64,000 bases of DNA. Source: Alphaproteobacteria bacterium (GTDB lineage Bacteria > Pseudomonadota > Alphaproteobacteria > SMXS01). The notes under the pieces were generated by a model. The model searched no databases. It saw only the letters and a program-made list of their open reading frames with translations, and had not been told where the DNA came from. The stretch spans positions 62,001 to 126,000 of the forward strand of contig JANQQJ010000028.1 of assembly GCA_028284945.1 (NCBI GenBank), written 5' to 3'. The position numbers were made by a program, and so were the translations under genes. Below, in pieces: positions 6,824 through 59,109 of this stretch (position 1 is its first letter; every line of letters starts with the position of its first letter).

Positions 6824-7354
6824 ATGACCGAAAACGGTACCCACCGGCTTCACGAGATGGCCGCGCGGGACGAAATCTATCAATTGGTATGCACCTATAT
6901 GCGGGGCCAAGACCGGCTGGACCCGGAAATCCACCGGTCGGTGTTCTGGGACGATGCCTATTGCTCCTATGGCATCTATGAAGGCGGACCGAATGGTTTT
7001 GTCGAGTTCGCACAGGGCGCGCTGAAGGACCATCTATCCAATCACCACATGATCGGCCAGGTGCAGATTGAGGTGGAGGGCACGGAAGCCTTCGGCGAGG
7101 TCTATTATCAGGCCTTTCACCGCATCAGGGACGAGGATGGCACCGAGCATGACCTGTTTGTCTGCGGCCGTTATGTCGACCGCTATGAACAACGCGATGG
7201 GGTCTGGAAGATCGCCTATCGCTCCGAACTGGTCGACTGGGTGCGCGACGACCCGGCGACTGATTCATGGCTCAAAGATAGCGGCATGTTGCCCGGCGCC
7301 CGAAAACCAGACGACCCTCTCTATAACCGCCAAGCCATGTACAAAAAACCATGA
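6824..7354 (+). CDS. SnoaL/NTF2-like protein
   Basis: 176 residues with the SnoaL-like alpha+beta-barrel pattern: an N-terminal helix (MAARDEIYQLVCTYMRGQDRLD), a central FWDDAYCSYGIYEGG block and a long C-terminal strand pair ending in RYEQRDGVWKIAYRSELVDW. Such proteins act as small dehydratases, isomerases or ring-hydroxylase subunits; which one is not visible. A good AGGGGAGATT site precedes the ATG. Its stop overlaps the P450 start by 4 bases (ATGA), so it most likely works in the same pathway. Confidence 0.8.
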   Translation: MTENGTHRLHEMAARDEIYQLVCTYMRGQDRLDPEIHRSVFWDDAYCSYGIYEGGPNGFVEFAQGALKDHLSNHHMIGQVQIEVEGTEAFGEVYYQAFHRIRDEDGTEHDLFVCGRYVDRYEQRDGVWKIAYRSELVDWVRDDPATDSWLKDSGMLPGARKPDDPLYNRQAMYKKP

Positions 7355-8586
7355 GTGTCTCCGATTACAGTTTGACCGACCCGGCGGTGCAGGAGTGCCC
7401 GTACCCGTTTTATGAAGCCATGCGCCGCGAGCAGCCGGTTTACCGGATGCCGGAAACCGGGTTCTATATCGTCAGTCGCTACGATGACCTAAAGGAAGTG
7501 CTGCGCGACGTGGACACGTTCTCAAACCAGTTCACGTCGGCGCGGGCGAAAGCCATTGGGGCGGCTGACAGTCCGATCACCAAAATGTACCAGACGAAGG
7601 GATGGGCGCCGGTTCCCGCCCTGCAACAGACCGACCCGCCGGTCCACACCCGGTTCCGCCGGCCCATTGATCGCACTTTTACCGCCAGCCGGGTGCGCGA
7701 AATGGTACCCTATATCGATGGCATCGTCAGCGACCTGATCGACGGGTTCATCGACAACGGCGAGACCGATTTCGTCGAGAGCTTTGCTGTCCCCCTGCCC
7801 TGTTATGTCATCGCCGACCAATTCGGCGTGCCGCGATCCGACGTACCGAAGCTGAAAAAATGGTCCGACGCGCTGATGGATCAGATCGGCATGATGATGT
7901 CACCGGAACGCGAGCAGCAGGTCGCCGATGAAATTCTGGAGTTTCAGACCTATTTCGACGGCGTGTTCGAAGACCGGATGAAGAACCCGCAGGATGACAT
8001 GCTATCGGACGTGGTCACGGTGCTGCCCGGTGAAGAGGCGCTCGATATGAATGAGCTGCTCAGCACCATGTCCCAGCTGTTGACCGGCGGCAACGATACG
8101 ACAACCGGCTCACTGGCCGAAGGCATGCTGCTGTTGGTCCAGCACCCGGACCAAATGGCGAAGCTGCGCGCTGACCCGTCGTTCATTAAAAATTTCGTCG
8201 AGGAAGTTTTGCGGATCGAGTCCCCCGTTCAGGGGCTGATGCGCGTAACCACCAGAGATGTTGAACTGGGTGGCACCGTGATCCCAAAAGGGGCTGTGGT
8301 TGTTGTCCGCTACGCCTCTGCCAATCGGGACGAAGCCCGGTTTGACTGTCCGGCTGAATTTCAGATCGATCGCAAAGATGCAGGCGCGCACATGGCGTTT
8401 GGTGCCGGCATTCACTTCTGTCCCGGCGCCATGCTGGCACGGCAGGAGATGATCAGCGCGTTCAGCCAACTGCTTGACCGTCTGCAAGACGTTGAGCTCT
8501 CCGTGCCGGAAACCGAGCTGGCACACTTTCCAAGCATGTTCCACCGGCGGCTGAAATCTCTGCCCATTCGCTTTCGAAAAGCTTAG
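7351..8586 (+). CDS. Cytochrome P450 (class I bacterial type)
   Basis: 411 residues, soluble, without a membrane anchor. The heme-ligand loop FGAGIHFCPGAMLAR places the axial Cys at 357; the K-helix ExxR is E285-V-L-R288; the I-helix oxygen-activation motif is LLTGGNDTTTG (about 244-253). The substitution of Asn-Asp for the more common Glu/Asp-Thr pairing is within normal variation. Redox partners (ferredoxin, ferredoxin reductase) are not encoded nearby. Co-translated with the SnoaL-like gene; substrate unknown. Confidence 0.95.
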   Translation: MSVSDYSLTDPAVQECPYPFYEAMRREQPVYRMPETGFYIVSRYDDLKEVLRDVDTFSNQFTSARAKAIGAADSPITKMYQTKGWAPVPALQQTDPPVHTRFRRPIDRTFTASRVREMVPYIDGIVSDLIDGFIDNGETDFVESFAVPLPCYVIADQFGVPRSDVPKLKKWSDALMDQIGMMMSPEREQQVADEILEFQTYFDGVFEDRMKNPQDDMLSDVVTVLPGEEALDMNELLSTMSQLLTGGNDTTTGSLAEGMLLLVQHPDQMAKLRADPSFIKNFVEEVLRIESPVQGLMRVTTRDVELGGTVIPKGAVVVVRYASANRDEARFDCPAEFQIDRKDAGAHMAFGAGIHFCPGAMLARQEMISAFSQLLDRLQDVELSVPETELAHFPSMFHRRLKSLPIRFRKA

Positions 8587-8709
8587 CCAACACAGCATTA
8601 CAATGGCCAACCAAGCAATTGACTGATGGCCGTCAAAAAGCCAGTTTAGGAGCCTATCCCCTCGTCCTGGCAACCCTTCATCCGGGGCACACATGTTGAG
8701 TCATTGTGG

Positions 8710-9642
8710 ATGAAACTTGCCTATCTCATTCGGGCCCACCGGGACCCGGCACAACTGGCCCGATTGATCGAGGCGCTTCGGTATTCGGGGACGCGCTTCT
8801 TCATTCATATTGACCGCAAAGTCGATCAAGCACCATTCGAAGACATCCTCTCAAAGGCTGGCGATGTACACTTTATCCGTAATCGCACCGAACTGAACTG
8901 GGGCGGCTTCAGCATGGTCGAGGCGACGCTTCGGTCTTTGAGAGAAATGCTGGAAGAAGTCGGTGACGCGTCCCCTGATTACATCGCACTTTTAAGCGGG
9001 CAGGATTACCCGATTAAATCTAACGCGGAAATCCATGACTTCTTCGAAACCCATCGCGGGAAAGACTTCTTGAGCTATGCCAAGATTCCGGCACCGTTTT
9101 GGGGTGACCTGGAACATCAACGGATTACCAAATTCAATTTTTACAACGAGAAAATCCTGACATGGCCGGCAAACAAAGATGGCCGCATCGGCGACCGGAA
9201 GACGCTTCGACTTTACATTGCGACCAAACTGGCCAGCTGGTTGCTGCCGGAGCGCAGGCCACCACCCGGTTGGGAGGCCTATGGCGGTTCGGCCTGGTGG
9301 TGTCTGAGCCGCGAAACCACTGAATATGTGGTCCGCAAGGCAGATGAGTCGCCGGAACTAGCGAACTTCTTCCGGTGGACATTGCATCCTGAGGAAATGT
9401 TTTTTCAAACTCTGTTGGTCAATTCTCCCCACGCTGACAGACTTGTCGGGGAGTACCTTGAAGACAAGCTTGGTGACTATCTTTGGTACCAGAACTGGGG
9501 TAGCGCGCCACGACCAGAGGTGCTGACGGTGAATGACTTTGATGCTATCAGACACGCAGAGCGGCTTTTTGCACGCAAGTTTGATCCAGCGCATGACAGC
9601 CGTATCCTTGATATGATTGACGAGGCGAGGAGCACCGCGTGA
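8710..9642 (+). CDS. GT14-family glycosyltransferase, copy 1
   Basis: About 310 residues. MKLAYLIRAHRDPAQLARLI, FIHIDRKVD, NRTELNWGGFSMVEATL, YIALLSGQDYPIKS and GGSAWWCLSRE followed by HPEEMFFQTLL match the core-2/I-branching beta-1,6-N-acetylglucosaminyltransferase fold (GT14), which uses a UDP-sugar without a DxD metal motif. ATG at 8710 chosen; a TTG two codons earlier is possible. No signal or membrane segment, so it should act on cytosolic glycan intermediates. Followed, with a 4-base overlap, by a full-length paralogue. Confidence 0.85.
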   Translation: MKLAYLIRAHRDPAQLARLIEALRYSGTRFFIHIDRKVDQAPFEDILSKAGDVHFIRNRTELNWGGFSMVEATLRSLREMLEEVGDASPDYIALLSGQDYPIKSNAEIHDFFETHRGKDFLSYAKIPAPFWGDLEHQRITKFNFYNEKILTWPANKDGRIGDRKTLRLYIATKLASWLLPERRPPPGWEAYGGSAWWCLSRETTEYVVRKADESPELANFFRWTLHPEEMFFQTLLVNSPHADRLVGEYLEDKLGDYLWYQNWGSAPRPEVLTVNDFDAIRHAERLFARKFDPAHDSRILDMIDEARSTA

Positions 9643-10619
9643 AGATCGCCTACATCATTCGGGCCCATCAATATCCTGAATTGCTAAAACGCCTGGTTGA
9701 CGCGCTCCGTGCACCGGGTGTCCGGCTCTATATCCACATCGACAAAAAAGTCGCGGAACAACCCTTCCGTGACGTGCTGGATCCAGATGGCCACGCCGCG
9801 GATATCTCGTTTGTGAACCAACGGGTAGAGATGAACTGGGGCGGCTACAGCATGATCCGCGCCACGCTCAATGCACTTCACCAGATCATTGAGGAAACAG
9901 CAGATGACCCGCCTGACTATTTCTTCCTTTTGAGCGGTCAGGACTATCCGATCCTGTCGAACCGGGAAATCGCCGAATTCATGGAAGCGCATCGCGGCAA
10001 GGAGTTCCTCAGCTATGCCAAAATGCCCGTTCCATTTTGGTCGGAACGCGAGATGCGCCGGTTCACGGAGTACCAGTTCTATGACTTCAAATCGCTGGTC
10101 TGGCCCGCCTATCACACCGGCAAGATTGGCATCCGAAAGACCTATCGGCTCTACATAACAACCCAACTGGCCCGCATTTTGTTGCCCAAGCGCAAGATAC
10201 CCGATGGTCTGGTCCCCTATGGCGGGTCGGCCTGGTGGGCGCTCAGCCTGGACTGCATCCAGTATTGCCTGAAGCTCCTGGAAGATCGCCCAGAGATTGA
10301 CCGATACTTCAAGTGGACCTCACACCCTGAAGAAATTTTCTGGCAGACGATCATCATGAACTCGGAATTTGCCGACAACGTCATCGGCGAGTTCCTGGAA
10401 ACGCATTTGAGCGATTATCTGCGGTTTCAGATCTGGGGTCCGCTGTATCGCCCTCGTGAACTTCTTGTCTCTGATTGGGACGACATCATCGGGTCAGGGC
10501 GGATGTTCGCCAGGAAGTTCGACGAGAACGTTGATGCCGAAATCCTCAGGATGATCGACGAACGCCGCGCGAAGATCGATTCATCCGAACCGGTTGCCAG
10601 TTCGGCATCGGAACCGTAG
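9639..10619 (+). CDS. GT14-family glycosyltransferase, copy 2
   Basis: 326 residues starting with GTG inside the stop of copy 1 (GTGA). It is homologous to copy 1 along its whole length: IRAHQYPELLKRLVDALR, LYIHIDKKV, RVEMNWGGYSMIRATL, FFLLSGQDYPILSN, GGSAWWALSLD and HPEEIFWQTII. The tail beyond about residue 305 is Ser/Glu-rich and not shared. A tandem duplication with divergence suggests the two add sugars at different positions of one glycan. Probably one operon with the MIOX-like genes and glf downstream. Confidence 0.85.
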   Translation: MKIAYIIRAHQYPELLKRLVDALRAPGVRLYIHIDKKVAEQPFRDVLDPDGHAADISFVNQRVEMNWGGYSMIRATLNALHQIIEETADDPPDYFFLLSGQDYPILSNREIAEFMEAHRGKEFLSYAKMPVPFWSEREMRRFTEYQFYDFKSLVWPAYHTGKIGIRKTYRLYITTQLARILLPKRKIPDGLVPYGGSAWWALSLDCIQYCLKLLEDRPEIDRYFKWTSHPEEIFWQTIIMNSEFADNVIGEFLETHLSDYLRFQIWGPLYRPRELLVSDWDDIIGSGRMFARKFDENVDAEILRMIDERRAKIDSSEPVASSASEP

Positions 10620-10646
10620 CATTTCGCTCGGCAGAAAGAGGCGACA

Positions 10647-11366
10647 TTGCGCTGGATCAGGAAACAATTCCGCAAAGAAATTCTGAGGCGAGGCTACATT
10701 CACGAGCCACGGCTTCATGACGATTTCCATGAAAAGGCGTTCGCCATCCAGGACCGCCATCAGCAACAGACTTCCGACGATGTCCAATCGCTTTCAACAA
10801 AGCATGAAAAGCCGGTACTGGGTGATGTCCATGTTTATGAATTGCTGGAACGCCTCGCCTTTGTCTATGACCCCAGTGACCCGGCTCTTGGAACCACAAG
10901 CCAGCTGATCCATACGCTTCAGGTGGTTGAAGCCATGGAAGATGACGGCGTCACGGACCCAGACATGATTGTGACCGCGCTGATCCACGACCTCGGAAAG
11001 CTTCTCTTTACAGCCGGAGAGGCACCCGAGAACGTGTTTTGCATGATCGAGCCTATTGGCGACTATGTCGATGGCGTCGGGCTTGATGCCTGCATTTTTC
11101 AATGGAACCATGACGAGTTCATCTATTCGCGGTTCAAAGATCACGTCAGTGACGACATGGCCTGGGTGCTTCGATATCACAGCATTTACCCAGACCAATG
11201 CGCACGACTGATGACACCGGAAGAGCGTGAGAAGACGGAACGCCTCCTCAAGCCATTTCAACACTACGACCAGGACTTCAAATCGACCTACTACGCGCCC
11301 GACCGGCGTCTGGAAGACTATCGCGCACTGATCGAAGAAAGGTTTCCAGATCCGATCAGTTTCTGA
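10647..11366 (+). CDS. Inositol-oxygenase-like HD-domain protein, copy 1 (all metal ligands present)
   Basis: 239 residues with a TTG start after an AAAGAGG site. It follows the myo-inositol oxygenase (MIOX, PF05153) pattern: DPSDPALGTTSQLIHTLQ, LIHDLGK, QWNHDEFIY, LRYHSIYP, FQHYDQDFKS and a C-terminal LEDYRALIEERFPDPISF. By comparison with mouse MIOX the six di-iron ligands are all present: H89, H114, D115, H155, H178, D208. MIOX-type enzymes use a mixed-valent di-iron centre to oxidise a diol or hydroxyl substrate with O2. Its setting among glycosyltransferases and a galactofuranose gene suggests a sugar-linked substrate, which is inference. Confidence 0.8.
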   Translation: MRWIRKQFRKEILRRGYIHEPRLHDDFHEKAFAIQDRHQQQTSDDVQSLSTKHEKPVLGDVHVYELLERLAFVYDPSDPALGTTSQLIHTLQVVEAMEDDGVTDPDMIVTALIHDLGKLLFTAGEAPENVFCMIEPIGDYVDGVGLDACIFQWNHDEFIYSRFKDHVSDDMAWVLRYHSIYPDQCARLMTPEEREKTERLLKPFQHYDQDFKSTYYAPDRRLEDYRALIEERFPDPISF

Positions 11367-11374
11367 CGAGGGCA

Positions 11375-12124
11375 ATGGGGGAGCCAACTTTGGTGGACAG
11401 CTTCGACAGGCGGCACTGGGTCCGGGCCTGGCTTGAGGACCGTGGCTGGATCATTCGCCGCAAGCAGCGTGGATACGACCTATTTCGCGAATGCGCGCAA
11501 TCGCTGGAAGATGCCACCTATCGGCAGACCCCCGAAGACGCTCAAGCGTACGCGAACCGCTTTTTGGAACCAGTCTTCGGTACATTGCCGATGATGGATC
11601 TGCTGGAGCGCCTCGCAGAGGTGACCGATCCTTCCGATCAATCGCTCGGTAGCACCAACCAACTCGAGCACGTGTTGCAGGTGGTTTACGAAATGGAAGA
11701 GGATGGCATTGAGGACCGGGATTTCCTGGTCATGGGTCTGGTCCACGACCTGGGCAAACTTCTGTTGCTGACGGATCATCCGATACACTCACTATTGGGC
11801 GTACCAAAACCTGTCGGCCCTAAACAGCGCAGGGCTGGCCTCGATAGCTGTACCTTCCGGTGGACCGTCGACGAATACGCGTATTTCCGTTTGCGCGATC
11901 ACCTGCCTGAACCGATGGCCTGGTTGCTTCGCTACCACACGATCGACATAGACGGCTCGACGGATCTCATGGACGATCGCGACCTTGAGTATCGTGAACG
12001 CTATCTCCGACCGTTTTACCGGTATGATCAGGGATCAAAGTCACCCTATTATCGATCGCCCCGCCGCCTTGAGGACTATCGTGACCTCATCGAAAGCTAT
12101 TTTCCTGAACCGATTGCGTTTTGA
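11375..12124 (+). CDS. Inositol-oxygenase-like HD-domain protein, copy 2 (one ligand lost)
   Basis: 249 residues, eight bases after copy 1 and clearly related: TDPSDQSLGSTNQLEHVLQVV, GLVHDLGK, LLRYHTID, YRYDQGSKSPYY and LEDYRDLIESYFPEPIAF. Five of the six MIOX-type ligands remain (H99, H124, D125, H188, D218). The sixth is changed: where copy 1 has WNHDE, this one has WTVDE, putting Val at position 165. The second iron site should therefore be weakened, so it may be a mono-iron enzyme, a partner subunit of copy 1, or inactive. ATG at 11375 follows GAGGGCA; other starts within 20 residues are possible. Confidence 0.75.
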   Translation: MGEPTLVDSFDRRHWVRAWLEDRGWIIRRKQRGYDLFRECAQSLEDATYRQTPEDAQAYANRFLEPVFGTLPMMDLLERLAEVTDPSDQSLGSTNQLEHVLQVVYEMEEDGIEDRDFLVMGLVHDLGKLLLLTDHPIHSLLGVPKPVGPKQRRAGLDSCTFRWTVDEYAYFRLRDHLPEPMAWLLRYHTIDIDGSTDLMDDRDLEYRERYLRPFYRYDQGSKSPYYRSPRRLEDYRDLIESYFPEPIAF

Positions 12125-12200
12125 CGGGTTTCAGCGCTTGACTCAGCCGCCTCTGTAAGCGACTGATCCGCCAGCAAAACCAAGCAGAAGTGGGCCTGTC

Positions 12201-13298
12201 TTGAAAGAGATCATCGTCGTCGGCGCGGGATATTCCGGCGCCGTTGTTGCCGAGCAACTCGCGTCAGCAGGCCACAAGGTCCGGGTTCTGGAAAAGCGCG
12301 GCCATATTGCGGGCAATGCGTTCGATCAAAAGGATGAACATGGTGTGCTGGTCCACCGGTATGGACCGCACATCTTCCACACCAATTCCGACGTGGTGTT
12401 TGACTATCTCAGCAAGTTCACCGATTGGATTGATTACGAACACCGTGTTTTGGCCCAGGCTGACGGGGCGCTACACCCCATACCGATCAATCTCGACACG
12501 ATTAACGGCATCTTCGGCACCTCATTCACCGAAGACGAGGCAGAGGCGCATCTGAAATCCATTCGCGAACCTGTCGATCAGGTCAAAACCAGTGAAGACG
12601 TGGTTGTCTCAACCGTTGGCCGAAAGCTCTATGAAGCATTCTTCCAGGGCTACACCCGCAAACAATGGGGGTTGGACCCCTCCGACCTCGACGCAACGGT
12701 GACGGCGCGCATCCCGTACAGGACCAACCGCGACGACCGCTACTTCACGGATACGCATCAGGCCATGCCCGCCGACGGGTATACGGCCATGTTCGAGCGC
12801 ATCCTCGATCACTCCAATATTTCTGTCGAACTGGGCGTCGACTTCTTCGCCGAACGCGACCGCCTGAAACCGTCCCATATCGTCTATTCCGGTCCCGTCG
12901 ATACTTATTTCGACCAATGCTACGGCGCCCTCGCCTACCGGTCCTTGCGCTTTGAACACGAACACATTGCAGATCAGGACAGTTACCAGCCTGTGGCGAC
13001 GGTCAACTATCCCAACGACCACGCGTTCACGCGGATCACCGAATTCAAGAAACTGACTGGTCAAACTGTCAGCGGCACCTCAATCGTCCGCGAATACCCG
13101 ACGGATGACGGCGACCCTTATTACCCCGTTCCCCGCCCGGAGACTCAGGTGCTTTATCATCGCTATCGCGAGCTGGTTAACAAAGAACGGCATGTCACGT
13201 TCGTCGGACGATTGGCGCAGTACCGCTACTACAATATGGATCAGGCCACAGCAGCCGCCCTCAAGGCCGCGCGGACGCTGCTCGACGGCATCGCCTAG
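12201..13298 (+). CDS. glf: UDP-galactopyranose mutase
   Basis: 365 residues beginning (TTG) KEIIVVGAGYSGAVVAEQLA, the FAD Rossmann motif, then LEKRGHIAGNAFD, YGPHIFHTNSD and the C-terminal EYPTDDGDPYYPVPRP and TFVGRLAQYRYYNMDQ. This flavoenzyme converts UDP-galactopyranose to UDP-galactofuranose, the donor for surface polysaccharides, O-antigens or S-layer glycans. Its position right after the two GT14 and two MIOX-like genes makes it the best clue that the cluster builds a surface glycan. A galactofuranosyltransferase of the GlfT type is not seen here. Confidence 0.93.
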   Translation: MKEIIVVGAGYSGAVVAEQLASAGHKVRVLEKRGHIAGNAFDQKDEHGVLVHRYGPHIFHTNSDVVFDYLSKFTDWIDYEHRVLAQADGALHPIPINLDTINGIFGTSFTEDEAEAHLKSIREPVDQVKTSEDVVVSTVGRKLYEAFFQGYTRKQWGLDPSDLDATVTARIPYRTNRDDRYFTDTHQAMPADGYTAMFERILDHSNISVELGVDFFAERDRLKPSHIVYSGPVDTYFDQCYGALAYRSLRFEHEHIADQDSYQPVATVNYPNDHAFTRITEFKKLTGQTVSGTSIVREYPTDDGDPYYPVPRPETQVLYHRYRELVNKERHVTFVGRLAQYRYYNMDQATAAALKAARTLLDGIA

Positions 13299-21915: not shown

Positions 21916-22292
21916 GCCCAAATCATTAATTCGGTAGACCTCTGGTGTTCGACACCAGGGGCTAAAGTTGTGCGCCTGAACAACGGCGCAATCGGCGCTT
22001 CAACTGATACGCCCTTGCGCGCGCACCCTGCCAGGAAACTATCCTCGCCCCCACTGGAACCGCAGATTTCTGCGGAAAACCCCCTGCTCACGTGATCCGC
22101 CTGCAGTGATCGCCTAGAAATTACTTAAAAACTCAAATAAAAAAATTTGTTTCAATTTTTATTTACCTTTTTACTAATAAAAAGGTTTTGATTATTACTT
22201 TGTCATATGTTTTTTTACTTCGTGTTCGGCCATGGCGACATTGGTTGTTAACCGGGTCGACGCAAACACAAACCAAAGGATTGGAGAAACTA
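21916..22292. promoter_or_regulatory. AT-rich leader and promoter region of the tad locus
   Basis: About 375 bases without a gene. A weak hairpin CCTCTGGTG-TTCGA-CACCAGGGG at 21939-21961 may end the MarR transcript. From 22120 to 22215 the DNA becomes very AT-rich compared with its surroundings, as expected for a strong pilin promoter or a nucleoid-protein target. Inside it lies the perfect palindrome at 22166-22185. Confidence 0.5.
22166..22185. promoter_or_regulatory. Perfect palindrome CCTTTTTA-CTAA-TAAAAAGG
   Basis: Eight-base arms with a four-base spacer, about 108 bases before the flp1 start codon and inside the AT-rich block. Its position and symmetry fit an operator for a dimeric regulator, possibly the LdtR-like protein encoded just upstream; that link is inference. 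Confidence 0.4.
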
Positions 22293-22454
22293 ATGTCTAA
22301 ACTCATCAACAAGTTCATGGCCAACACCGACGGCGCGACGCTGATCGAGTACGGCCTGATCGCAGCGCTCGTCGCTGTTGCTCTGGTTGGCGCACTTGGC
22401 GGCCTGGAAAGCAACTTGAGCACGCTGTTCGACGACGTCGGCGCCCAGCTCTAA
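22293..22454 (+). CDS. flp1: Flp/Fap-type major pilin, copy 1
   Basis: 53 residues, the usual size of the Tad pilin precursor. A short basic leader ends in Gly14, followed by ATLIEYGLIAALVAVALVGA: the prepilin peptidase should cut after Gly14, leaving the conserved Glu at +5 and Tyr at +6, then one hydrophobic helix. TTGGAGAAACTA supplies a good ribosome site. First gene of the tad locus; a weak terminator-like hairpin follows, which would let pilin mRNA outnumber the downstream machinery. Confidence 0.93.
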   Translation: MSKLINKFMANTDGATLIEYGLIAALVAVALVGALGGLESNLSTLFDDVGAQL

Positions 22455-22541
22455 GGGCCTAAACGTCACATTCCTGACATTCCAGTTCCCGGAGCTCAGG
22501 ATCGGATGACAGCGGGGGAATAGAGGCAGATCAGCTGCTAC

Positions 22542-22570
22542 GGCTCCCTTCAGCAATGAGAAGCCTTTTT
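22542..22570 (+). terminator. Weak attenuating hairpin with T-run after flp1
   Basis: GGCT (22542-22545) can pair with AGCC (22562-22565), with partial pairing inside, followed by five T. Too weak for a full stop but placed where partial termination between an abundant pilin and its assembly genes is common. Confidence 0.35.
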
Positions 22571-22631
22571 CCCTCGCTGTCGTCTGATGACGTCCCTCAA
22601 ACTCCATCTCGGTCTCCACGGCGAATGAACG

Positions 22632-23099
22632 ATGTCAGATATCAATATCTTCCAACTGCTGATACTTGCCGCGCTCGTCGGAACCTTGATTTGGTGCACG
22701 GTTGAAGACGTCAGGCGGAGAATTATTCCGCACTCGGCAACTGTCGCCGTCATTCTCACATACATTCTATACGCGGCCGCGGGCTTCGCTGACCCTGTAA
22801 GCGGACTGGCTGCCGGCGCAATTTACCTCGTTATTGGTTTTGTCCTTTTTCAATTCAATCTCATGGGCGGCGGAGATGCGAAACTCATTGCAGCCGTCGC
22901 TCTTTGGGCGGGCCTGGAATTTGCACTCCCGCTCGCTTTCTACATCACAATCGCCGGCGGTTTCGTCGCACTTGGCGTGTTGATCACTCAACGCGTCCGC
23001 GTCTACGCCGGCACAGCCGCCAAGGATATCGCGATGACCGTTCCTTACGGGATGGCGATAGCCGCTGGCGGATCACTCGTCGCCCTTCAGGCGGCTTAA
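22632..23099 (+). CDS. cpaA: Prepilin peptidase, A24 family
   Basis: 155 residues, all membrane: about four or five hydrophobic helices. The two aspartates of the A24 aspartic protease are present: Asp26 in VEDVRRRIIP and Asp82 in the GGGD motif (MGGGDAKLIAA). It is the short TadV/CpaA form lacking the N-terminal methylase domain. It matures Flp pilin and the TadE-like pseudopilins at the inner membrane. Fifteen bases before cpaB. Confidence 0.92.
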   Translation: MSDINIFQLLILAALVGTLIWCTVEDVRRRIIPHSATVAVILTYILYAAAGFADPVSGLAAGAIYLVIGFVLFQFNLMGGGDAKLIAAVALWAGLEFALPLAFYITIAGGFVALGVLITQRVRVYAGTAAKDIAMTVPYGMAIAAGGSLVALQAA

Positions 23100-23114
23100 C
23101 GGAGGCGCTTTACG

Positions 23115-23969
23115 ATGCGAGCTCGATTTGTACTTTTGTTGGCGGTCAATGTTCTTCTGGTCATTGGCGTCGTCATTTTCACCCGTTCATGGCTTTCCAG
23201 CGGCGAAACTGTCGAAGCGCCGCAGGTTGTTGCGCAGGTAACGCGCCAAACCGACCTAGTCGAGGTCCTTACAACGGCCAATGACCTGGCGCCCGGCACG
23301 CTGATCAAAGAAGCGCATCTGGAATGGCAGCAATGGCCCGAGGAAAACCTTGCAGAAACCTATGTCTGGAAGGAAATCGAGGCCGAAGACGAAATTGAAG
23401 AGGAAGCCGAAAACCAGGTTCTGGGCGCCGTTGTCCGCTTCGGCCTGGCCAAGGGGCAACCCATCGTGCCTGGCGCAGTTGTTAAGCCGGGCGAACGCGG
23501 GTTCCTTGCAGCGATTCTCGATCCTGACAAAAGGGCCGTCTCGATCCCGGTCAGCGCTGCTGCAGGTGGTGCCGGCTTGATTCTCCCTGGCGACCGGGTT
23601 GATGTCATTCTGACGCAAATGGTCGAATTGGAGACTTTGGATGGCGAAGAAGTACGCCGCCATGCCACAGAGACCTTGCTATCAGACATTCGGGTTATTG
23701 CGTTTGACCAATCTGTCAGTGGCGATCCGACCGATCCAACAGTCGCCCGGACGGCCACTCTTGAAGTTCTGCCGCGCCAGGGCGAAGTCCTCGCACTGGC
23801 TGAAGAGCTGGGCAAGCTTTCGCTAAGCCTTCGCAGCATTCAAAGCGGCAGCGGCAACGCCCGCCGGGGCGCGGTGTGGGATCACCACGCGTCAGCAGCG
23901 CTGTCGGCGCCAAGCGACACCAAACAGTCGCTCATTCCTGAAATTGTCCGCGGCGGCGAAGGAAAATAA
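23115..23969 (+). CDS. cpaB: Flp pilus assembly protein CpaB (RcpC)
   Basis: 284 residues. An N-terminal membrane anchor (FVLLLAVNVLLVIGVVIF) is followed by a SAF domain (VEVLTTANDLAPGTLIKEAHLEW) and the RcpC/CpaB domain with KRAVSIPVSAAAGGAGLILPGDRVDVILT. CpaB is a periplasmic partner of the CpaC secretin. There is an acidic insert rich in Glu (EIEAEDEIEEEAENQV) between the SAF strands. The start has GGAGGCGC nearby. Confidence 0.9.
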   Translation: MRARFVLLLAVNVLLVIGVVIFTRSWLSSGETVEAPQVVAQVTRQTDLVEVLTTANDLAPGTLIKEAHLEWQQWPEENLAETYVWKEIEAEDEIEEEAENQVLGAVVRFGLAKGQPIVPGAVVKPGERGFLAAILDPDKRAVSIPVSAAAGGAGLILPGDRVDVILTQMVELETLDGEEVRRHATETLLSDIRVIAFDQSVSGDPTDPTVARTATLEVLPRQGEVLALAEELGKLSLSLRSIQSGSGNARRGAVWDHHASAALSAPSDTKQSLIPEIVRGGEGK

Positions 23970-24003
23970 TCGGAGGGCTTGGGGCCCAACGGAGGAAAAT
24001 CCC

Positions 24004-25482
24004 ATGATAGTTATACCGCGCAATAACAACACGTCTGGACCAGGGGTCATCAGAGGTCTTGTAGAGGTCCTGCTCGCAGCCTTCCTGCTGGTGGCGCTTC
24101 TGGCAGGGATTACTCCAGGTGCCCAAGCAGCTGACGTCCTGGCGTCAACAGAAGTTCTCGAAGTCGAGATTCAAAAAGGTAAGATCGTCCGGGTTGACCG
24201 CCCTGCAGCCACTGTTTTTGTTGCCAATCCGGATGTTGCGGATGTCGAGACACGGTCGCAACGGACGGTCTTCATCTATGGCCGCCAAGCCGGTGAAACG
24301 ACCCTATATGTCCTCGACTCTGATGACAGGCCGTTGCTCAACGTAACCGTGCGGGTGACACATAACATTTCACGCCTCAATCAGATGATCCGGTCCATTG
24401 CCCCGAACGCCGACGTTAATGTGACATCGATCGACGGTGGCGTGATGGTTGATGGCGCCATTGAGGATCCTCAAAACGCCACCGAGCTGATCACGCTCGT
24501 CCAAAACTTCCTTGGACCCGAAGAAAAAGTTCTGAACCGCTTGTCGGTCACCGCACCCACACAGGTTAACCTTCGTGTCCGGTTCGCTGAAGTCTCAAGA
24601 GAGGTTCTTCGGGTCCTCGGCGTCACCTGGTCCGCACAGGACTTCCCGGACATGATCAGTGCGATCGACCCGATTACCGGTGCACCGATCACCATTATCG
24701 ACCCGACCGATCAGACCACATTCAATATCTTCAGCACCCGCCCGGATTTCTCGCTCGAGGCAGAAGCAAACACGGCGATCATCAATCAGCGGATCGGCCC
24801 AACCAATCTTCAGGCAACGCTCGACGCGCTGGAAAAAGAGAATCTGATTTCGATGCTGGCCGAGCCGAATCTCACCGCCCTTTCAGGTGAAACCGCGAGT
24901 TTTCTTGCCGGCGGTGAATTTCCGATCCCGGTTGGCGTCGACGATAATGAAGTGGGTATCGAGTTCAAAGAGTTCGGCGTCAGTCTCGCATTTACGCCAA
25001 CGGTCCTGAGCGGTAACCGCATTAGCATGCGCGTGCGTCCGGAAGTCAGCCAGTTGACCGACACCGGGGCGATCATTCTGCAAAATATCCAGATCCCCGC
25101 TCTGACCACCCGCCGGGCCGACACCACAATTGAATTGGCGAGCGGGCAAAGCTTTGCCATCGCTGGACTGATTCAGAGCCGGCAAACAAACGACGTCAAC
25201 AAGGTTCCGGGCCTGGGTGATGTGCCCGTGCTAGGCCAGCTCTTTCAGTCCAAGGGCTTTCAGAATCAGGAAACAGAACTGGTGATTATCGCCACGCCTT
25301 ACCTGGTTCGCCCGGTTGGTGGACCGGAGCGGTTGTCAACACCGACAGACTACCCAACCGGTGACCAGCAGTTCCAGCGCAAGCTCATGTCCCAACTGGA
25401 GGGCGAAGAGTCTGATGGAACTGATTCGAAGAAGCTCGCCGGTGAGAAGATCTCCGGTCCCGTTGGCTTCATGTTGGACTAA
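24004..25482 (+). CDS. cpaC: Tad pilus secretin CpaC (RcpA)
   Basis: About 492 residues. A signal peptide (VEVLLAAFLLVALLAG, cut near AQAAD) leads to an N-terminal BON-like/pilus domain (VEIQKGKIVRVDRPAATVFV) and then the type II/III secretin domain: VNLRVRFAEVSREVLR, LISMLAEPNLTALSGETA and VPGLGDVPVLGQLFQSK, with the final strand ETELVIIATPYLVRP. It forms the outer-membrane channel for the pilus. Start at 24004 chosen because CGGAGGAAAATCCC directly precedes it. Confidence 0.94.
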   Translation: MIVIPRNNNTSGPGVIRGLVEVLLAAFLLVALLAGITPGAQAADVLASTEVLEVEIQKGKIVRVDRPAATVFVANPDVADVETRSQRTVFIYGRQAGETTLYVLDSDDRPLLNVTVRVTHNISRLNQMIRSIAPNADVNVTSIDGGVMVDGAIEDPQNATELITLVQNFLGPEEKVLNRLSVTAPTQVNLRVRFAEVSREVLRVLGVTWSAQDFPDMISAIDPITGAPITIIDPTDQTTFNIFSTRPDFSLEAEANTAIINQRIGPTNLQATLDALEKENLISMLAEPNLTALSGETASFLAGGEFPIPVGVDDNEVGIEFKEFGVSLAFTPTVLSGNRISMRVRPEVSQLTDTGAIILQNIQIPALTTRRADTTIELASGQSFAIAGLIQSRQTNDVNKVPGLGDVPVLGQLFQSKGFQNQETELVIIATPYLVRPVGGPERLSTPTDYPTGDQQFQRKLMSQLEGEESDGTDSKKLAGEKISGPVGFMLD

Positions 25483-25506
25483 CGCAGGTTGGCAAGGAGT
25501 AGCATC

Positions 25507-26220
25507 ATGAACAGATCACAACGTCACCCCGCCCCTCTTTACCGCACACGGTTGGCCGTGCCTGCATTGACTGCCTTGCTGCTGGCGGCGTGCTCAACCA
25601 ACGGGGACTACTTTCCTCAACGTGACGGCTACATAGCCACACCGGAACGTAACACGGTTGAAGTTGCATCCAGTGATTACCGCATCGACCTGTCGCCCGG
25701 TCAGACGAGCCTGACCTCAGTTCAGATCGATGGACTGAACACCTTCTTGGCGGCCCAGGGCCGTGAGTACGGTGATCATATCGAGATCTATACAACGCTG
25801 AACTCGGGTCTCGGCCAGCGGAAATCGCGTAATGCAATGATTGTCGATGAACTCCGCAGCGCGTTCATTCGCGGTGGTTATCTGTCGACACGCATTCACT
25901 TGATGAATGAAGCAAACTCGACCGATTCACTTCGTGTTGCCATCCAGCGCTACACTGTCACCCTGCCCGACTGCACGTATGAGGCTGAAAAAGCCGACGA
26001 AGGGTGGACTAACGAACCTGTCGGCGCGCGCCCTTTGGGCTGCGCCAACGAGCGCAACCTGGGGCTTATGGTCGCCGATCCCCGGGATCTCGCTGGATAC
26101 CGCGAACTGGGCCCAACACGCGGTGTCAGGGATTCCGGTGCGATCATCCGCTACGACACGGATAAGGTCAAAGAGATCGTAAAGACAGGGACTGGCTCTG
26201 AGCAAGGAGGAGGCCAGTAA
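25507..26220 (+). CDS. cpaD: Pilus assembly lipoprotein CpaD
   Basis: About 237 residues with a lipoprotein signal (TALLLAACSTN, lipid-anchored Cys) and an OmpA-like periplasmic part containing EIYTTLNSGLGQRKSRNAMIV, typical of CpaD, thought to help place the CpaC secretin. The C-terminus has the family's cysteine pair (LPDCTYEAE and LGCANERNLG). Ribosome site AAGGAG is seven bases before the ATG. Confidence 0.88.
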   Translation: MNRSQRHPAPLYRTRLAVPALTALLLAACSTNGDYFPQRDGYIATPERNTVEVASSDYRIDLSPGQTSLTSVQIDGLNTFLAAQGREYGDHIEIYTTLNSGLGQRKSRNAMIVDELRSAFIRGGYLSTRIHLMNEANSTDSLRVAIQRYTVTLPDCTYEAEKADEGWTNEPVGARPLGCANERNLGLMVADPRDLAGYRELGPTRGVRDSGAIIRYDTDKVKEIVKTGTGSEQGGGQ

Positions 26221-26222
26221 CC

Positions 26223-27440
26223 ATGGAAGTTACGCCCTTGTCACCTGAGGATGCAGCTGCACAGAAGGACCCGTTCCTGGCCTTTGTGACAGACGATCAG
26301 ACCGAACGAGTCATTCGGGAGATCGCGGAATCGCTGCTGCTACCTGAAGATACGGTCAGACGCGGTTCAATCGAAGACGCGCACAACTATCTGCAGCAGG
26401 TCCGTTCGCCGAGCCTGTTGCTTGTTGATGTGGACCAGTCCAGCGATCCTCTGGACGAAATCGTCAAACTCGCTGATGTGTGCGAGTTGGGTACCAAGTT
26501 GATTGCGATCGGCGCCGAGAACGACGTCACCCTGTTCCGTGACCTTTTGACAATGGGCGCGACGGACTATCTGGTTAAGCCACTCGACAAAGAGAACCTC
26601 CTTCGTTCTGTCAGTGCCATGGACGACCGGGGCGCTGGTCTGTCCTCAATGGGCCGGTTGGGCAAGTCCGTGTCCTTCATCAGCACCCGTGGTGGCGCTG
26701 GCGCTACGACGATTGCGGCAAATTGCGGTTGGGTCATATCGCAAGCCGCGAAACGCCGCGTCAACCTAATCGACATGGATCTTCATTTCGGAAACCTGGC
26801 GCTCATTCTTGGTGCAGAGGCAACAGAAGGTCTTGCAGATGGGTTGCGCCAGCCGGACCGGATCGATCAGCTGTTCCTAGAACGGGTGATGACGCCTTGC
26901 GGCGATCGTCTTTTCGTCGTCGGCGGTGAAGAAAGCCTATCTGAGGCATTTCACGGCGGCGACCGCGGTGCGGTGGACATCCTTGTCAACGAGCTTCGGT
27001 CGAAATTCCACTTCGTCTTGATGGACCTGCCACGGTCATCTTCTGATGTCGTTTACCGGGCCGTCCAACTATCCAGCACAACGGTTCTGGTGAGCGATCT
27101 GTCGCTTGCCGGTATGCGAGACACCGTGCGCCTGATCAAATTCATTCAGGAAAACAGCCCCGGCGGTCAAATCGTTCTGGTTGTCAATAAGATCGGCGAA
27201 AACCCGAAAGCAGAAATTCCGATAGCCGAATTCGAAAAAGGTGTCGGTCAGTCTGTCGACTTTCAAATCGCGTTCGAACCCAACACCATTATGCGTGCGG
27301 CTAATCTTGGTCAGCCGCTTGCTGAAGTACGCAGTGACGCTGCCAAAGTGATCGAGCAACTTGCTGAAAAAATTGCTGGGCCCTCGCCCGCCACACAATC
27401 GAAGAAGAAGTCCTTTTTACAGTCCATCTTGAAGGGGTAA
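26223..27440 (+). CDS. cpaE: Tad pilus localisation ATPase CpaE (TadZ)
   Basis: 405 residues. An atypical receiver-like domain (about 15-140, LLLVDVDQSSDPLDEI, TDYLVKPLDKENLL) is followed by a MinD/ParA-type ATPase domain with STRGGAGATTIAANCGW as the deviant Walker A, DMDLHFGNLAL and FHFVLMDLPRSSSDVV as Walker B. The missing Lys in the P-loop is common among CpaE proteins, which position the pilus machine at the cell pole. Two bases after cpaD and three bases before cpaF. Confidence 0.92.
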   Translation: MEVTPLSPEDAAAQKDPFLAFVTDDQTERVIREIAESLLLPEDTVRRGSIEDAHNYLQQVRSPSLLLVDVDQSSDPLDEIVKLADVCELGTKLIAIGAENDVTLFRDLLTMGATDYLVKPLDKENLLRSVSAMDDRGAGLSSMGRLGKSVSFISTRGGAGATTIAANCGWVISQAAKRRVNLIDMDLHFGNLALILGAEATEGLADGLRQPDRIDQLFLERVMTPCGDRLFVVGGEESLSEAFHGGDRGAVDILVNELRSKFHFVLMDLPRSSSDVVYRAVQLSSTTVLVSDLSLAGMRDTVRLIKFIQENSPGGQIVLVVNKIGENPKAEIPIAEFEKGVGQSVDFQIAFEPNTIMRAANLGQPLAEVRSDAAKVIEQLAEKIAGPSPATQSKKKSFLQSILKG

Positions 27441-27443
27441 CCT

Positions 27444-28880
27444 ATGTTCGGCCGACGGTCGCCCGATTCCGTGTCCAATGGCGAGGCCAAGCCGGCGGAC
27501 CCTGCACCAGGAGCCATTATCTCGAGTGAGGTGATGGCAACGGATGTAACAGACACTCAGATTCAACCTGCTGGTGGAGACGCCGGGCCTGCTGCGCGTC
27601 AGCCCGCGAACCGGACGTCGTCTGTTGCCAATCGCGATGAAATTCTTGCCGATGTCTTGGAACGCATTGATGCTTCGGCTGCCGTGCGGATGTCGCGGGA
27701 AGAACTCCAAACCGAACTTGGCGGTCTCGTCAGTGAAATTCTGATCGAACGTCGCATTGTCCTAGGGCAGCGCGAGCAGCAGGAACTGACCAAGGTTCTG
27801 GTCGACGAAATGGTGGGCTTCGGTCCGCTTGAGCCGCTGCTGGACGATGAAGCGGTCACCGATATCATGGTCAACGGCCCAGATCAGATCTTTGTCGAAC
27901 GCAAAGGCAAACTCGAGCTAACGGACGTCCAATTCCGTAACAATGCGCACGTGATGAATGTTGCGCAGCGGATTGTGAGCCGGGTTGGCCGGCGCATTGA
28001 TGAATCGGTTCCGTTGGTCGATGCCCGACTGCCTGACGGCAGCCGCGTGAACATTATCGCGCCACCGCTTGCGCTGGATGGCACGTCCATCTCAATTCGT
28101 AAGTTCGCGAAAAAGAAAATCACCCTCGACGTCATGATTCGGACCAATAACATTTCCGAAAGCATGGCAACCGTGATGAAAATCGCTGCCGCATGCCGGC
28201 TCAATATCTTGATCTCGGGCGGCACGGGTTCCGGTAAGACAACCCTTCTCAATGCGATGTCACGCATGATCGATATCGGCGAGCGCATCGTGACGATCGA
28301 AGACGCGGCGGAATTGCAGCTGCAGCAGCCCCATGTTGTGCGGCTGGAAACCCGACCACCCAATATCGAGGGCACTGGCGAAATCACCATGCGCGATCTG
28401 GTAAAGAACGCCCTGCGTATGCGGCCTGACCGTATCATCCTGGGTGAGATCCGTAGTTCTGAAGCCATCGACATGCTTCAGGCCATGAATACCGGCCATG
28501 ATGGCTCGCTCAGTACGATTCACGCCAATTCAGCCCGTGAAGCACTGATCCGGCTAGAAAACATGGTCTCAATGGGCGGGTTTTCGCTGACCGAGCGGGC
28601 GTTGAGCACTCAGGTCGCTAACGCCATCGACATGATCGTCCAGATTGAACGTATGCGCGATGGCGTTCGCCGCGTCGTTCAGGTCGCGGAGATCGTCGGG
28701 ATCGAAGGCGACGTCATTCTGATGCAAGACCTCTACAACTTCGAACACAGTGGTGAACTTCGCGATGGCAAACTGGTCGGTGAATTCGCCTATACCGGCC
28801 TGCGCCCCCACTTCTTGAAGACCGCAGCGCATTTTGGCCTTGATCGGTCGCTGCTCGCAGCCTTGGGTGAGGGTCACTGA
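27444..28880 (+). CDS. cpaF: Tad secretion ATPase CpaF (TadA)
   Basis: 478 residues of the VirB11/GspE AAA-type superfamily. GFGPLEPLLDDEAVTDIMVNG is the CpaF N-domain signature; LISGGTGSGKTTLLNA is Walker A; RMRPDRIILGEIRSSEA is Walker B; STIHANSAREALIRLE is the His box. It powers pilus assembly and probably retraction from the cytosol. The first 60 residues are a variable Pro/Ala-rich tail. Confidence 0.96.
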   Translation: MFGRRSPDSVSNGEAKPADPAPGAIISSEVMATDVTDTQIQPAGGDAGPAARQPANRTSSVANRDEILADVLERIDASAAVRMSREELQTELGGLVSEILIERRIVLGQREQQELTKVLVDEMVGFGPLEPLLDDEAVTDIMVNGPDQIFVERKGKLELTDVQFRNNAHVMNVAQRIVSRVGRRIDESVPLVDARLPDGSRVNIIAPPLALDGTSISIRKFAKKKITLDVMIRTNNISESMATVMKIAAACRLNILISGGTGSGKTTLLNAMSRMIDIGERIVTIEDAAELQLQQPHVVRLETRPPNIEGTGEITMRDLVKNALRMRPDRIILGEIRSSEAIDMLQAMNTGHDGSLSTIHANSAREALIRLENMVSMGGFSLTERALSTQVANAIDMIVQIERMRDGVRRVVQVAEIVGIEGDVILMQDLYNFEHSGELRDGKLVGEFAYTGLRPHFLKTAAHFGLDRSLLAALGEGH

Positions 28881-29893
28881 TGGAAGTGCTGCTGAATAAT
28901 CCAGGCATTGTCCTCGGGCTTTGCGCCTTCGCCCTGGTGCCGACGGCGTTTCTGTTGGCCTATGGATCGACCGAAGAACGCACGATGCGCCGGCGGATCG
29001 AAAAAGTCGCGTTGCTTGAGGCCCCTGGCGCCCAGGCGGCCCGGCAGAACGACCCCGCCAAGGCCAAACTTGATATCCGGGCCAACAAAAAGGGCAAGAA
29101 GACAATCCTGCCCGAAGACAGCCGGTTCAGCCTTCTGGCTCCAAACTTCGACATTTTGAGGCTCAAACTGGAGCGCGCCGGGCTTACTTTCGGACCAGGC
29201 GCCCTGGCCGGCATTGTTGTTGGGTTGTCTCTGGCCGCAACACTGATCCTCGTGATGACTGCCCCCTTACCTTTCGGGGCGGCAGCAGCAGCGGGCCTGG
29301 CGATCGGCGTGGTTGTGCCAACCCTGGTTATCCGATCCCGTGGCGCCCGGCGTGCCAAAGCATTCTTGGCTGACTTGCCTGATGCGATCGATCTGATCGT
29401 CCGCAGCGTCCGGTCAGGCCTGCCCGTGAGCGAGTCACTCCATGCCATTGCCCGCGATTTGACCGGCCCCGCATCGGTTGAGTTCAAGCGCGTCAGTGAT
29501 CAGATGATGATCGGCATCGATATGGAAGAAGCGCTGAACCGGTCCGTACAGCGTCTCGGCCTTACCGACTATGCGTTCCTAGCTGTCTCATTGTCGATCA
29601 CGCGCGATACCGGCGGTAATCTTAGTGAGACGTTGACAAACCTGGCCAAATTGCTCCGCTCGCGTCAGCAGATGCATCTGAAAATCCGCGCCTATTCCTC
29701 CGAAGCCCGCGCGTCCGCCATGATCATTGGCCTGCTGCCATTTATCGTGATGGGCATTCTGGTTGTGATCAATCCGGAATACATGATGACGCTTTTCATC
29801 CATCCAACCGGTCACGACGTTCTTACATTTGCCGGCATAAGCATGGCTATCGGCTTCGGTGTCATGGCCAAAATGGTGAGGTTTGACTTTTGA
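28880..29893 (+). CDS. tadB: Tad platform protein TadB (CpaG)
   Basis: 337 residues with an N-terminal membrane helix, a central pair (GALAGIVVGLSLAATLILVM and the following helix) and two C-terminal helices. It has the T2SS-F platform domain: LPDAIDLIVRSVRSGLPVSESLHAIA and ITRDTGGNLSETLTNLAKLLRSR. The start ATG shares one base with the cpaF stop. It forms the inner-membrane platform together with TadC. Confidence 0.92.
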   Translation: MEVLLNNPGIVLGLCAFALVPTAFLLAYGSTEERTMRRRIEKVALLEAPGAQAARQNDPAKAKLDIRANKKGKKTILPEDSRFSLLAPNFDILRLKLERAGLTFGPGALAGIVVGLSLAATLILVMTAPLPFGAAAAAGLAIGVVVPTLVIRSRGARRAKAFLADLPDAIDLIVRSVRSGLPVSESLHAIARDLTGPASVEFKRVSDQMMIGIDMEEALNRSVQRLGLTDYAFLAVSLSITRDTGGNLSETLTNLAKLLRSRQQMHLKIRAYSSEARASAMIIGLLPFIVMGILVVINPEYMMTLFIHPTGHDVLTFAGISMAIGFGVMAKMVRFDF

Positions 29894-30864
29894 GCCCGGT
29901 TGCCTTCTTCGATACTTTGTCGGCTGCAGAGATTGTCCCCATTGGTGCGGCAATCATGATCGTCGCATTCACGATTGTCGTTTGGTTTTCTGTGATCGAA
30001 CGCGATCCGATGCGCGACCGCGTGAAAGCCATGTCGGCCCACCGCGAGCATCTGCGGCAACGCCATATCAAAAAGCAATCGGATGCGTCAAAGCCGTCAT
30101 TCAGAGAACGCAAGAGCCTGTTCAGTTCCTTTGCATCAGAGATGCGGCGCGCCAAGGGTGAAACGACGGAAAAAGTCCGTCTCTCGCTTGCTCAAGCGGG
30201 CTGGCGTTCCAATGAAGCCCTGGGCATCTTCTTTGCCGCTAAAATGCTTGGGCCGTTCGCCATGTTCGGGCTGTCGTTCGTCGCGTACTACATGTTTGAA
30301 TCTCTACAGGACATGCAGCCGGCCTTGCGGACCGCTTCAATGGGTATCGCCGTCTTGTGCGGCTTCATTATTCCTGACGTTGTCGTCTCAAGAATGGCGC
30401 GTCGCCGGGGTATCAAACTTGAGCGCGGATTACCAGATGCGCTCGATTTGATGGTGGTCTGTACCGAGGCTGGCTTGGGTATGGATTCGGCTTTTGACCG
30501 CGTCTCGAACGAAGTGGGCCGATCTCATCCGGAAGTCGCCGATGAATTGAGCTTAACTTCTGTTGAACTGAACATCTTGCCGAACCGGACCGAAGCGCTG
30601 AACAACCTTGTCGGTCGAACCGGTGTTTCAACCATCGAGTCCGTCGTCAGCACTCTGGCGCAGACGGAACGATACGGAACCCCCGTGTCTCAGTCGTTCC
30701 GGGTCCTGGCCGCTGACTTCAGGGAAGCCCGGCTGCTCCGTGCCGAAGAAAAAGCGGCACGGCTGCCTGCCACACTGACCATTCCGATGGTTCTGTTTAT
30801 TCTACCTTGCCTGTTTGCGGTGCTGCTGGGGCCGGCGATCATTAACTCCCTCGACACCTTCTAA
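29890..30864 (+). CDS. tadC: Tad platform protein TadC (CpaH)
   Basis: 324 residues, TTG start overlapping the tadB stop (TTGA). Membrane helices near the N-terminus, middle and C-terminus flank the T2SS-F domain: LPDALDLMVVCTEAGLGMDSAFDRV and LAQTERYGTPVSQSFRVLAADFREARLLRAEEKAARLP. It pairs with TadB. The next gene is convergent, only 11 bases away, with no visible terminator between. Confidence 0.92.
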   Translation: MSPVAFFDTLSAAEIVPIGAAIMIVAFTIVVWFSVIERDPMRDRVKAMSAHREHLRQRHIKKQSDASKPSFRERKSLFSSFASEMRRAKGETTEKVRLSLAQAGWRSNEALGIFFAAKMLGPFAMFGLSFVAYYMFESLQDMQPALRTASMGIAVLCGFIIPDVVVSRMARRRGIKLERGLPDALDLMVVCTEAGLGMDSAFDRVSNEVGRSHPEVADELSLTSVELNILPNRTEALNNLVGRTGVSTIESVVSTLAQTERYGTPVSQSFRVLAADFREARLLRAEEKAARLPATLTIPMVLFILPCLFAVLLGPAIINSLDTF

Positions 30865-30875
30865 GTCTGCCGAAT

Positions 30876-32681: not shown

Positions 32682-32714
32682 TGTATGAGTCCGCCTCCAT
32701 GGCGTTTCCCGCAC

Positions 32715-32937
32715 CTTACACTGTTAACAGATTGTTAAAAGCTGTCCGTTTAGGCTACCTGCCCGAAGGCCCCATCCGCAATGCCGGTCTGACAGGAATT
32801 ATATATTTCGGCATCGCGATAGCTCGTATCCTTAGAACAAATTCGAAGAATTTGAAATAAAGCCTAAACAAAAATTCATTTGAATACTTCGACCACTTGT
32901 GCTTTAATACTCAAATCTAAAATCTTGAATCAAAAAA
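32715..32937. promoter_or_regulatory. AT-rich region before the second pilin
   Basis: 223 bases with no gene, AT-rich from about 32800. It holds the 13-mer AATTTGAAATAAA at 32849-32861, also found at 34687-34699 in the divergent tadE/tadG region. Likely promoter region for flp2 and, leftward, for tadD. Confidence 0.45.
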
Positions 32938-33117
32938 ATGGCGTTTCTACCTGTGACGAGTGCTTTAAAATTATTCGCCGAGGGCAAGGACGGTGCGACT
33001 TTGATTGAGTACGCACTGATCGTGGCTCTTATGGTACTGGTTGTTGCCGTTTCTGTTGGGTCACTCGGCCAAGCGGTTCTAACCATGTACACTGAGATCG
33101 CAGGCGCCCCTTACTGA
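32938..33117 (+). CDS. flp2: Second Flp-type pilin (small, easily missed)
   Basis: 59 residues. After a short leader with SALKLFAEGKDG comes the processing site Gly19 followed by ATLIEYALIVALMVLVVAVS: Glu at +5 and Tyr at +6 as in flp1, with the same single hydrophobic helix and a short polar tail ending APY. The match at the cleavage site with flp1 (DGATLIEYxLIxAL) is strong evidence that it is real. The ribosome site is poor, preceded only by an A-run, so expression may be low. It stands alone between tadD and the tadE-type genes, both on the other strand. Confidence 0.88.
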   Translation: MAFLPVTSALKLFAEGKDGATLIEYALIVALMVLVVAVSVGSLGQAVLTMYTEIAGAPY

Positions 33118-33367
33118 TTCCAGTCTACACAACCAGTTTGGGCGCTTACGGTCAGTTGACGCGCCCGGCCCTCTCCCTACTTTCTCGAAGTGAAGCTGAC
33201 GATTTTCACCCCTGTGCCGTCAGGCTCAGACTCCGTTAATGCACCTCTGCGAGAGACGGTTTATCGGGCAGCTTTAAGGGTAACCTGAGCGGCTGGGCGG
33301 GCCTGCGATACAAAGAAGCCGACTTAACTTTAGCCTAAACTGAAACTCAAAATGCCCGGTGTCGCAG
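33118..33367. other. Intergenic region after flp2
   Basis: 250 bases between the convergent ends of flp2 and a pseudopilin gene. A short hairpin GGGCGC (33140-33145) with GCGCCC (33161-33166) may help end the flp2 transcript, but no T-run follows. Nothing else is recognised. Confidence 0.4.
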
Positions 33368-33967: not shown

Positions 33968-33992
33968 AATCACCGATTGGTCTCCTCGACCA

Positions 33993-59085: not shown

Positions 59086-59109
59086 TTCAGACATCTCCTT
59101 CGTGGGTGT

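Follow-up and report, generated by a model that had tools for sequence, protein, structure and literature searches.

Located within a 64,000-nucleotide stretch of DNA from an Alphaproteobacteria bacterium (GenBank assembly GCA_028284945.1, contig JANQQJ010000028.1, positions 62,001 to 126,000; referred to here, at its full length, as the window) is a run of five genes that probably forms a small operon for the assembly of a glycan or glycolipid, together with a tailoring oxygenase of the HD-domain di-iron type. The open reading frames (ORFs) are codirectional and almost gapless, and occupy positions 8710 to 13298 of the + strand. Listed below are their coordinates, strands, and assignments.

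8710 to 9642, + strand: GT14a, a glycosyltransferase of family 14 (PF02485, 95.9 bits), with TTG at 8704 as an alternative start
9639 to 10619, + strand: GT14b, a second family 14 glycosyltransferase (PF02485, 72.5 bits), with a 4-base overlap with GT14a
10647 to 11366, + strand: MIOXa, a short HD-domain protein resembling myo-inositol oxygenase (MIOX), with a complete di-iron ligand set (PF05153, 85.8 bits)
11375 to 12124, + strand: MIOXb, a diverged MIOX-like paralogue in which one iron ligand is gone (PF05153, 63.7 bits)
12201 to 13298, + strand: glf, encoding a UDP-galactopyranose mutase, GLF (TIGR00031, 368.7 bits; PF03275, 255.8)

The order of the five genes given in the preliminary description of the window is confirmed by both the reading frames and the family matches, all of which lie far above the curated Pfam and NCBIfam cut-offs (23.4 bits for PF02485, 25 bits for PF05153, and 303.75 bits for NCBIfam TIGR00031). 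For GT14a, the ATG at 8710 agrees with the N-termini of its homologues. The gap between MIOXa and MIOXb is 8 bases. Scans of the run for promoters and terminators gave signals that were not above those of shuffled sequences, and none that separates the genes, so that co-transcription and the limits of the operon are deduced from the gene spacing only.

As had been proposed from the first reading of the DNA, a glycan, possibly one of the cell surface, that is modified by an oxygenase appears to be the best explanation for the run. This is supported by the return of the GT14-MIOX-GLF grouping among relatives, two of which add a sulfotransferase, and by the proximity of the MIOX-like clade to glycan genes across three phyla that are unrelated to one another. 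The family was sampled with ten genomes, among them that of the window. A short MIOX is encoded in four of these, and in all four, which represent three chromosomal settings, a GT14 gene is positioned zero to two genes away; the grouping of GT14 with MIOX therefore exceeds chance. The occurrence of GT14 close to PF05153 proteins, to which the preliminary description had drawn attention, is repeated in three relatives. GLF directly adjoins MIOX in three of the four short-MIOX genomes. The gene order in two relatives (loci L014 and L015) is GT14, a sulfotransferase (PF13469), MIOX, and GLF, and that in the third (L016) is GT14 and MIOX with other neighbors.

Two further relatives in the genus (L076 and L077) display a pseudouridine synthase gene, GT14, and a gene for a β-lactamase-fold protein in the order of the L014 flanks, with GT14 directly beside the last. 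A single site can thus be seen with the sulfotransferase-MIOX-GLF block 3' of GT14 (L014, 7494–11287) and without it (L076, 9119–10060; L077, 9207–10145). Given that GT14 and the β-lactamase-fold gene are direct neighbors at that site in L076 and L077, the block has been gained or lost as one unit. Its presence and absence in closely related genomes provides a natural comparison.

The MIOX-like proteins belong to a distinct clade. The nine short proteins from the window, the three relatives, and four distant genomes are separated from four canonical bacterial MIOX sequences by a long branch with a support of 100/100, the depth of the split being rough given that just four canonical sequences entered the tree and the alignment. 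A 29-residue loop and the VGDT.P.GC motif, which includes Gly 141 and Asp 142, are present in all four canonical proteins and absent from all nine short ones, which carry instead an EAPENV.C or similar stretch in that region. In addition, the short proteins begin with a basic, amphipathic helix that is not basic in canonical MIOX. The helical moment exceeds that of shuffled sequences in only some members of the clade, and the binding of MIOXa to a membrane via this helix can be offered as a suggestion only.

The clade is rare and patchy. Apart from the four family genomes, it was encountered in the Myxococcota, the Cyanobacteriota, the Omnitrophota, and one member of the Pseudomonadales. A scan of 84,980 species genomes, which requires exact short motifs and so misses diverged members, returned six loci, namely the L014 and L015 contigs and the four distant ones (L022 to L025). 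No further true short member was found among 398 Pseudomonadota genomes, where the matches were short generic HD stretches, among 285 genomes of the Omnitrophota phylum, or among 58 genomes of the phylum of L022; 292 genomes of the Cyanobacteriota phylum added canonical MIOX only. Viral contigs gave 37 pattern matches, none of them a relative of the short clade, and plasmids gave two distant matches of the canonical type only.

Glycan genes adjoin the short MIOX in three of the four distant loci. In L022, assigned to the Myxococcota by its taxonomy line, a PF03407 sugar transferase gene starts 10 bases 3' of MIOX, after which the contig ends. The cyanobacterial locus, L023, encodes a PseF-like cytidylyltransferase (a CMP-sugar gene), a Wzt-type ABC protein, a methyltransferase, MIOX, and a truncated flavoprotein of the UDP-galactopyranose mutase (UGM) superfamily. 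That from the Omnitrophota, L024, contains genes for a Wzx-type flippase, a UGM-superfamily flavoprotein, a methyltransferase, and MIOX, followed by several glycosyltransferases in a row. The flavoproteins of L023 and L024 are of the PRK07208 type, and a TIGR00031 GLF is absent from three of the four distant genomes. Because GT14 is missing from all four and GLF from three, the common theme of the short clade is glycan genes rather than GT14 or GLF, and the notion of GLF as a tied partner of the clade was not borne out. Note that the MIOX of the Pseudomonadales locus (L025, 7860–8660) has an N-terminus that resembles, by eye, a twin-arginine (Tat) signal; this would mean a periplasmic di-iron oxygenase.

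The structure of MIOXa was modeled with AlphaFold2 to a predicted local distance difference test score (pLDDT) of 90.2. The model has the MIOX fold, in keeping with the identity first assigned to it, and its top structural match is the substrate-bound mouse enzyme (2huo), with a Z-score of 26.2 and a root mean square deviation of 2.8 over 216 residues; the Z-score versus human MIOX is 24.3. Matches to pentatricopeptide (PPR)-repeat entries of the Protein Data Bank (PDB) were dropped as low-complexity helix matches. All six metal ligands of the H...HD...H...H...D pattern are present, namely His 89, His 114, Asp 115, His 155, His 178, and Asp 208, which correspond to His 98, His 123, Asp 124, His 194, His 220, and Asp 253 in the mouse numbering on which residue positions were aligned and checked. 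Five of the six substrate- or metal-environment positions tested besides the ligands are likewise retained (the equivalents of Asp 85, Asp 88, Lys 127, Ser 221, and Lys 257). By modeled fold and by ligands, then, MIOXa can be placed in the MIOX family, although one sequence feature of the myo-inositol oxygenases is missing.

The HD superfamily consists mostly of phosphohydrolases (PMC8177086), and one ligand is lost in MIOXb; it might accordingly be argued that the MIOX-like proteins are HD-fold hydrolases, or di-metal-site binding proteins, rather than oxygenases. We consider this quite improbable. The Z-score for the MIOX match is far above those for other HD proteins, hydrolases included (8.2 or lower), and above those for the oxygenases PhnZ (12.5) and TmpB (11.3). 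Moreover, the ligand pattern of the oxygenases and the substrate-side lysines are retained in eight of the nine members of the clade.

The ninth is MIOXb, which is 45–46% identical to MIOXa. Here a valine, Val 165, replaces the ligand equivalent to His 194, and Thr 189 replaces Ser 221, leaving the H...HD...H...H...D set incomplete. MIOXb is the sole short-clade member with such losses, and it lies on a long branch (1.09). With the ligand and the serine absent, MIOXb probably does not function as an ordinary oxygenase of the di-iron type. The earlier notion of a pair of duplicated oxygenases therefore appears to hold for the ancestry of the two proteins and, as to activity, for MIOXa alone.

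The residues retained in MIOXa, together with its match to the substrate-bound mouse enzyme, would also suit an ordinary myo-inositol oxygenase that converts imported inositol to free D-glucuronate, in which case the locus would reflect the supply of glucuronate to the glycan or simple proximity. This we regard as unlikely, given the loss of the Gly 141-Asp 142 loop of 29 residues and the long branch that separates the clade from canonical MIOX. The genomic context is also different. The clade adjoins glycan genes rather than transporter or uronate genes, whereas two cyanobacterial canonical MIOX genes (L058 and L059) are near genes that by eye resemble those for ABC transporters, periplasmic binding proteins, sugar transporters, and gluconate kinases, and the Francisella MIOX adjoins glucuronate catabolism genes (PMC3479022). 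Of the eight genomes with a short MIOX, seven, including all four from the family, lack inositol-phosphate synthase (PF07994). The same is true of UxaC, but this is a weak point, for three of the four canonical-MIOX genomes lack UxaC as well; it fails to discriminate between the clades and was dropped as a marker of catabolism.

Several observations weigh against an oxygenase-modified glycan. The five residues kept around the MIOXa active site leave room for free myo-inositol as its substrate. The run in the window includes no flippase, polymerase, or priming transferase. The distant loci are on short metagenomic contigs, and in one of them, L025, the short MIOX lies outside any glycan cluster. 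Finally, GT14 stands by itself, without the block, in L076 and L077, and two relatives, one of them with a short MIOX, carry GLF elsewhere, at a site common to both. The separation of the genes in relatives, which the preliminary description had named as grounds for giving up its proposal, is thus observed in part, and of the claim that the five genes form a unit, the GT14-MIOX-GLF grouping stands but a fixed set does not. In one of the relatives with GLF elsewhere (L087, 8823–11360, − strand), GLF occupies the terminal part of an open frame that spans ∼850 codons and also matches the GT4-type family PF13692, possibly a glycosyltransferase-mutase fusion. A similar open frame with GLF is found in L086 at ∼9400–10470.

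These separations, along with the absence of GT14 from the distant short-MIOX genomes, would be expected if the genes shared no pathway, the GT14s serving one glycan and GLF another, with MIOX as a passenger. Such an arrangement seems to us hardly probable, for the short MIOX lies within two genes of GT14 in every family genome that has it, in three settings, and GLF is directly beside it in three of those four.

GT14a and GT14b share 53% identity, and their overlap and common ancestry are as originally described. Human xylosyltransferase 1 (XT1) aligns with GT14a over the length of the latter with an E value of 1e-25. In XT1, Glu 529 is the presumed catalytic base and Arg 598 and Lys 599 bind the diphosphate; this Arg-Lys pair comes from a single stretch, whereas C2GnT-L employs residues from two regions (PMC5992326). 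The equivalents of Glu 529, Arg 598, Lys 599, and Trp 392 are all kept in GT14a, GT14b, and the GT14s of three relatives. Both proteins of the window thus combine a PF02485 match, the catalytic glutamate shared with XT1 and the core-2 GlcNAc transferases, and the adjacent basic pair for the UDP diphosphate. They differ from XT1 in that the position of Asp 494 is occupied by alanine in all five bacterial GT14s compared, and in the absence of the Xylo_C domain. By sequence, GT14a and GT14b are assigned as metal-independent-type glycosyltransferases with intact catalytic residues; a UDP-xylose donor is not to be read from the retained tryptophan and the replaced aspartate. GT14b lies on a longer branch than GT14a (0.88 versus 0.21). 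A structure model of GT14a was poor (pLDDT 63) and was left unused. A second, distant GT14 (∼28% identical) occurs in two relatives and adjoins neither MIOX nor GLF.

UDP-galactopyranose mutase makes the rare ring form of galactose. The GLF of the window is a full-length TIGR00031 equivalog, matches the Deinococcus UGM (3hdq) with 477 bits, and is the only TIGR00031 protein, in a single copy, in its genome, where galE was also found. As an enzyme it is ordinary; only its neighbors are unusual. A product that contains galactofuranose, raised earlier as a possibility, is accordingly plausible for this locus. Galactofuranose was also considered as a substrate for the whole clade, which is unlikely given the distant genomes that lack GLF.

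In the mechanism that we propose, GT14a and GT14b would add sugars onto a membrane-linked acceptor, and GLF would provide UDP-galactofuranose to them or to a glycosyltransferase encoded outside the run. In the HD-domain oxygenases, Fe1 is the site of substrate binding and Fe2 that of O2 activation, and the cleavage of a C-C or C-P bond, a four-electron process, requires no external reductant (PMC8177086). MIOXa, because its ligand set is intact, would be expected to perform this chemistry. With an Fe(II)/Fe(III) center and O2, it may oxidize one carbon of a vicinal diol in a cyclitol or sugar within, or bound for, the glycan, probably with C-C cleavage to leave a carboxylate, and its basic N-terminal helix may place it on the inner side of the membrane. 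Both the missing loop and the neighboring glycan genes suggest such a linked cyclitol or sugar, rather than free inositol, as the probable substrate. MIOXb could be a partner subunit, which may bind and stabilize MIOXa or its substrate, or a decaying copy; either seems likelier than a second oxygenase. It is also conceivable, and we advance this with considerable doubt, that the short clade represents a new functional class within the HD-domain mixed-valent di-iron oxygenases, one whose members tailor glycans by oxidatively cleaving a C-C bond in a bound cyclitol or sugar (here perhaps at a diol belonging to galactofuranose or to an inositol headgroup), a modification that has not been described for these enzymes; MIOXb would then be a noncatalytic partner.

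Immediately 5' of the GT14 pair, at 6824–8586, are SnoaL-like and P450 genes with a 4-base overlap. They were rejected as part of a conserved block, as neither recurs in the blocks of the relatives; nor do the crotonase, pyridoxal kinase, and α/β hydrolase genes that lie 3' of glf. Further along the window, a cluster resembling that for a Flp/Tad pilus by eye (pilin, prepilin peptidase, CpaB/C/D/E/F-like and TadB/C-like proteins, and pseudopilins) extends from 22188 to 34598. A cobalamin riboswitch (RF00174, 114.7 bits) at 42165–42372 on the − strand lies 5' of both an ORF for a TonB-receptor-like protein (40021–41979, − strand) and putative vitamin B12 ABC-transporter genes. Two similar, adjoining ORFs for SMP-30/gluconolactonase-like proteins at 58165–60021 (− strand) represent a tandem duplicate.

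The preliminary description knew of no pathway with this gene set, and searches of open-access text, subscription papers being outside their scope, likewise revealed no GT14-MIOX operon and no relative of inositol oxygenase in a glycan cluster. The HD-domain oxygenases listed in 2020 were only MIOX, PhnZ, and TmpB, all of them catabolic and acting on small molecules (PMC8177086). If the reading of the run as a glycan-tailoring operon is true, the class would extend from catabolism to biosynthesis, and an acidic or ring-opened sugar hitherto not known would be indicated in bacterial surface glycans. MIOXa shares the class of PhnZ and TmpB by its ligand pattern, with a weaker fold match. These phosphonate oxygenases are characterized by a YxxE substrate loop (PMC8177086), whereas the short clade has no conserved one: the pair is not among the invariant columns of its alignment, a single YIHE near the N-terminus of MIOXa is missing in the relatives, and phosphonate genes are not nearby. 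Among the closest known systems is mouse MIOX, with which MIOXa shares the fold, the six ligands, and the five retained neighbors of the metal and substrate, and from which the short clade departs in the missing loop and motif, the added basic helix, and a setting among glycan genes as opposed to those for uptake or uronate catabolism.

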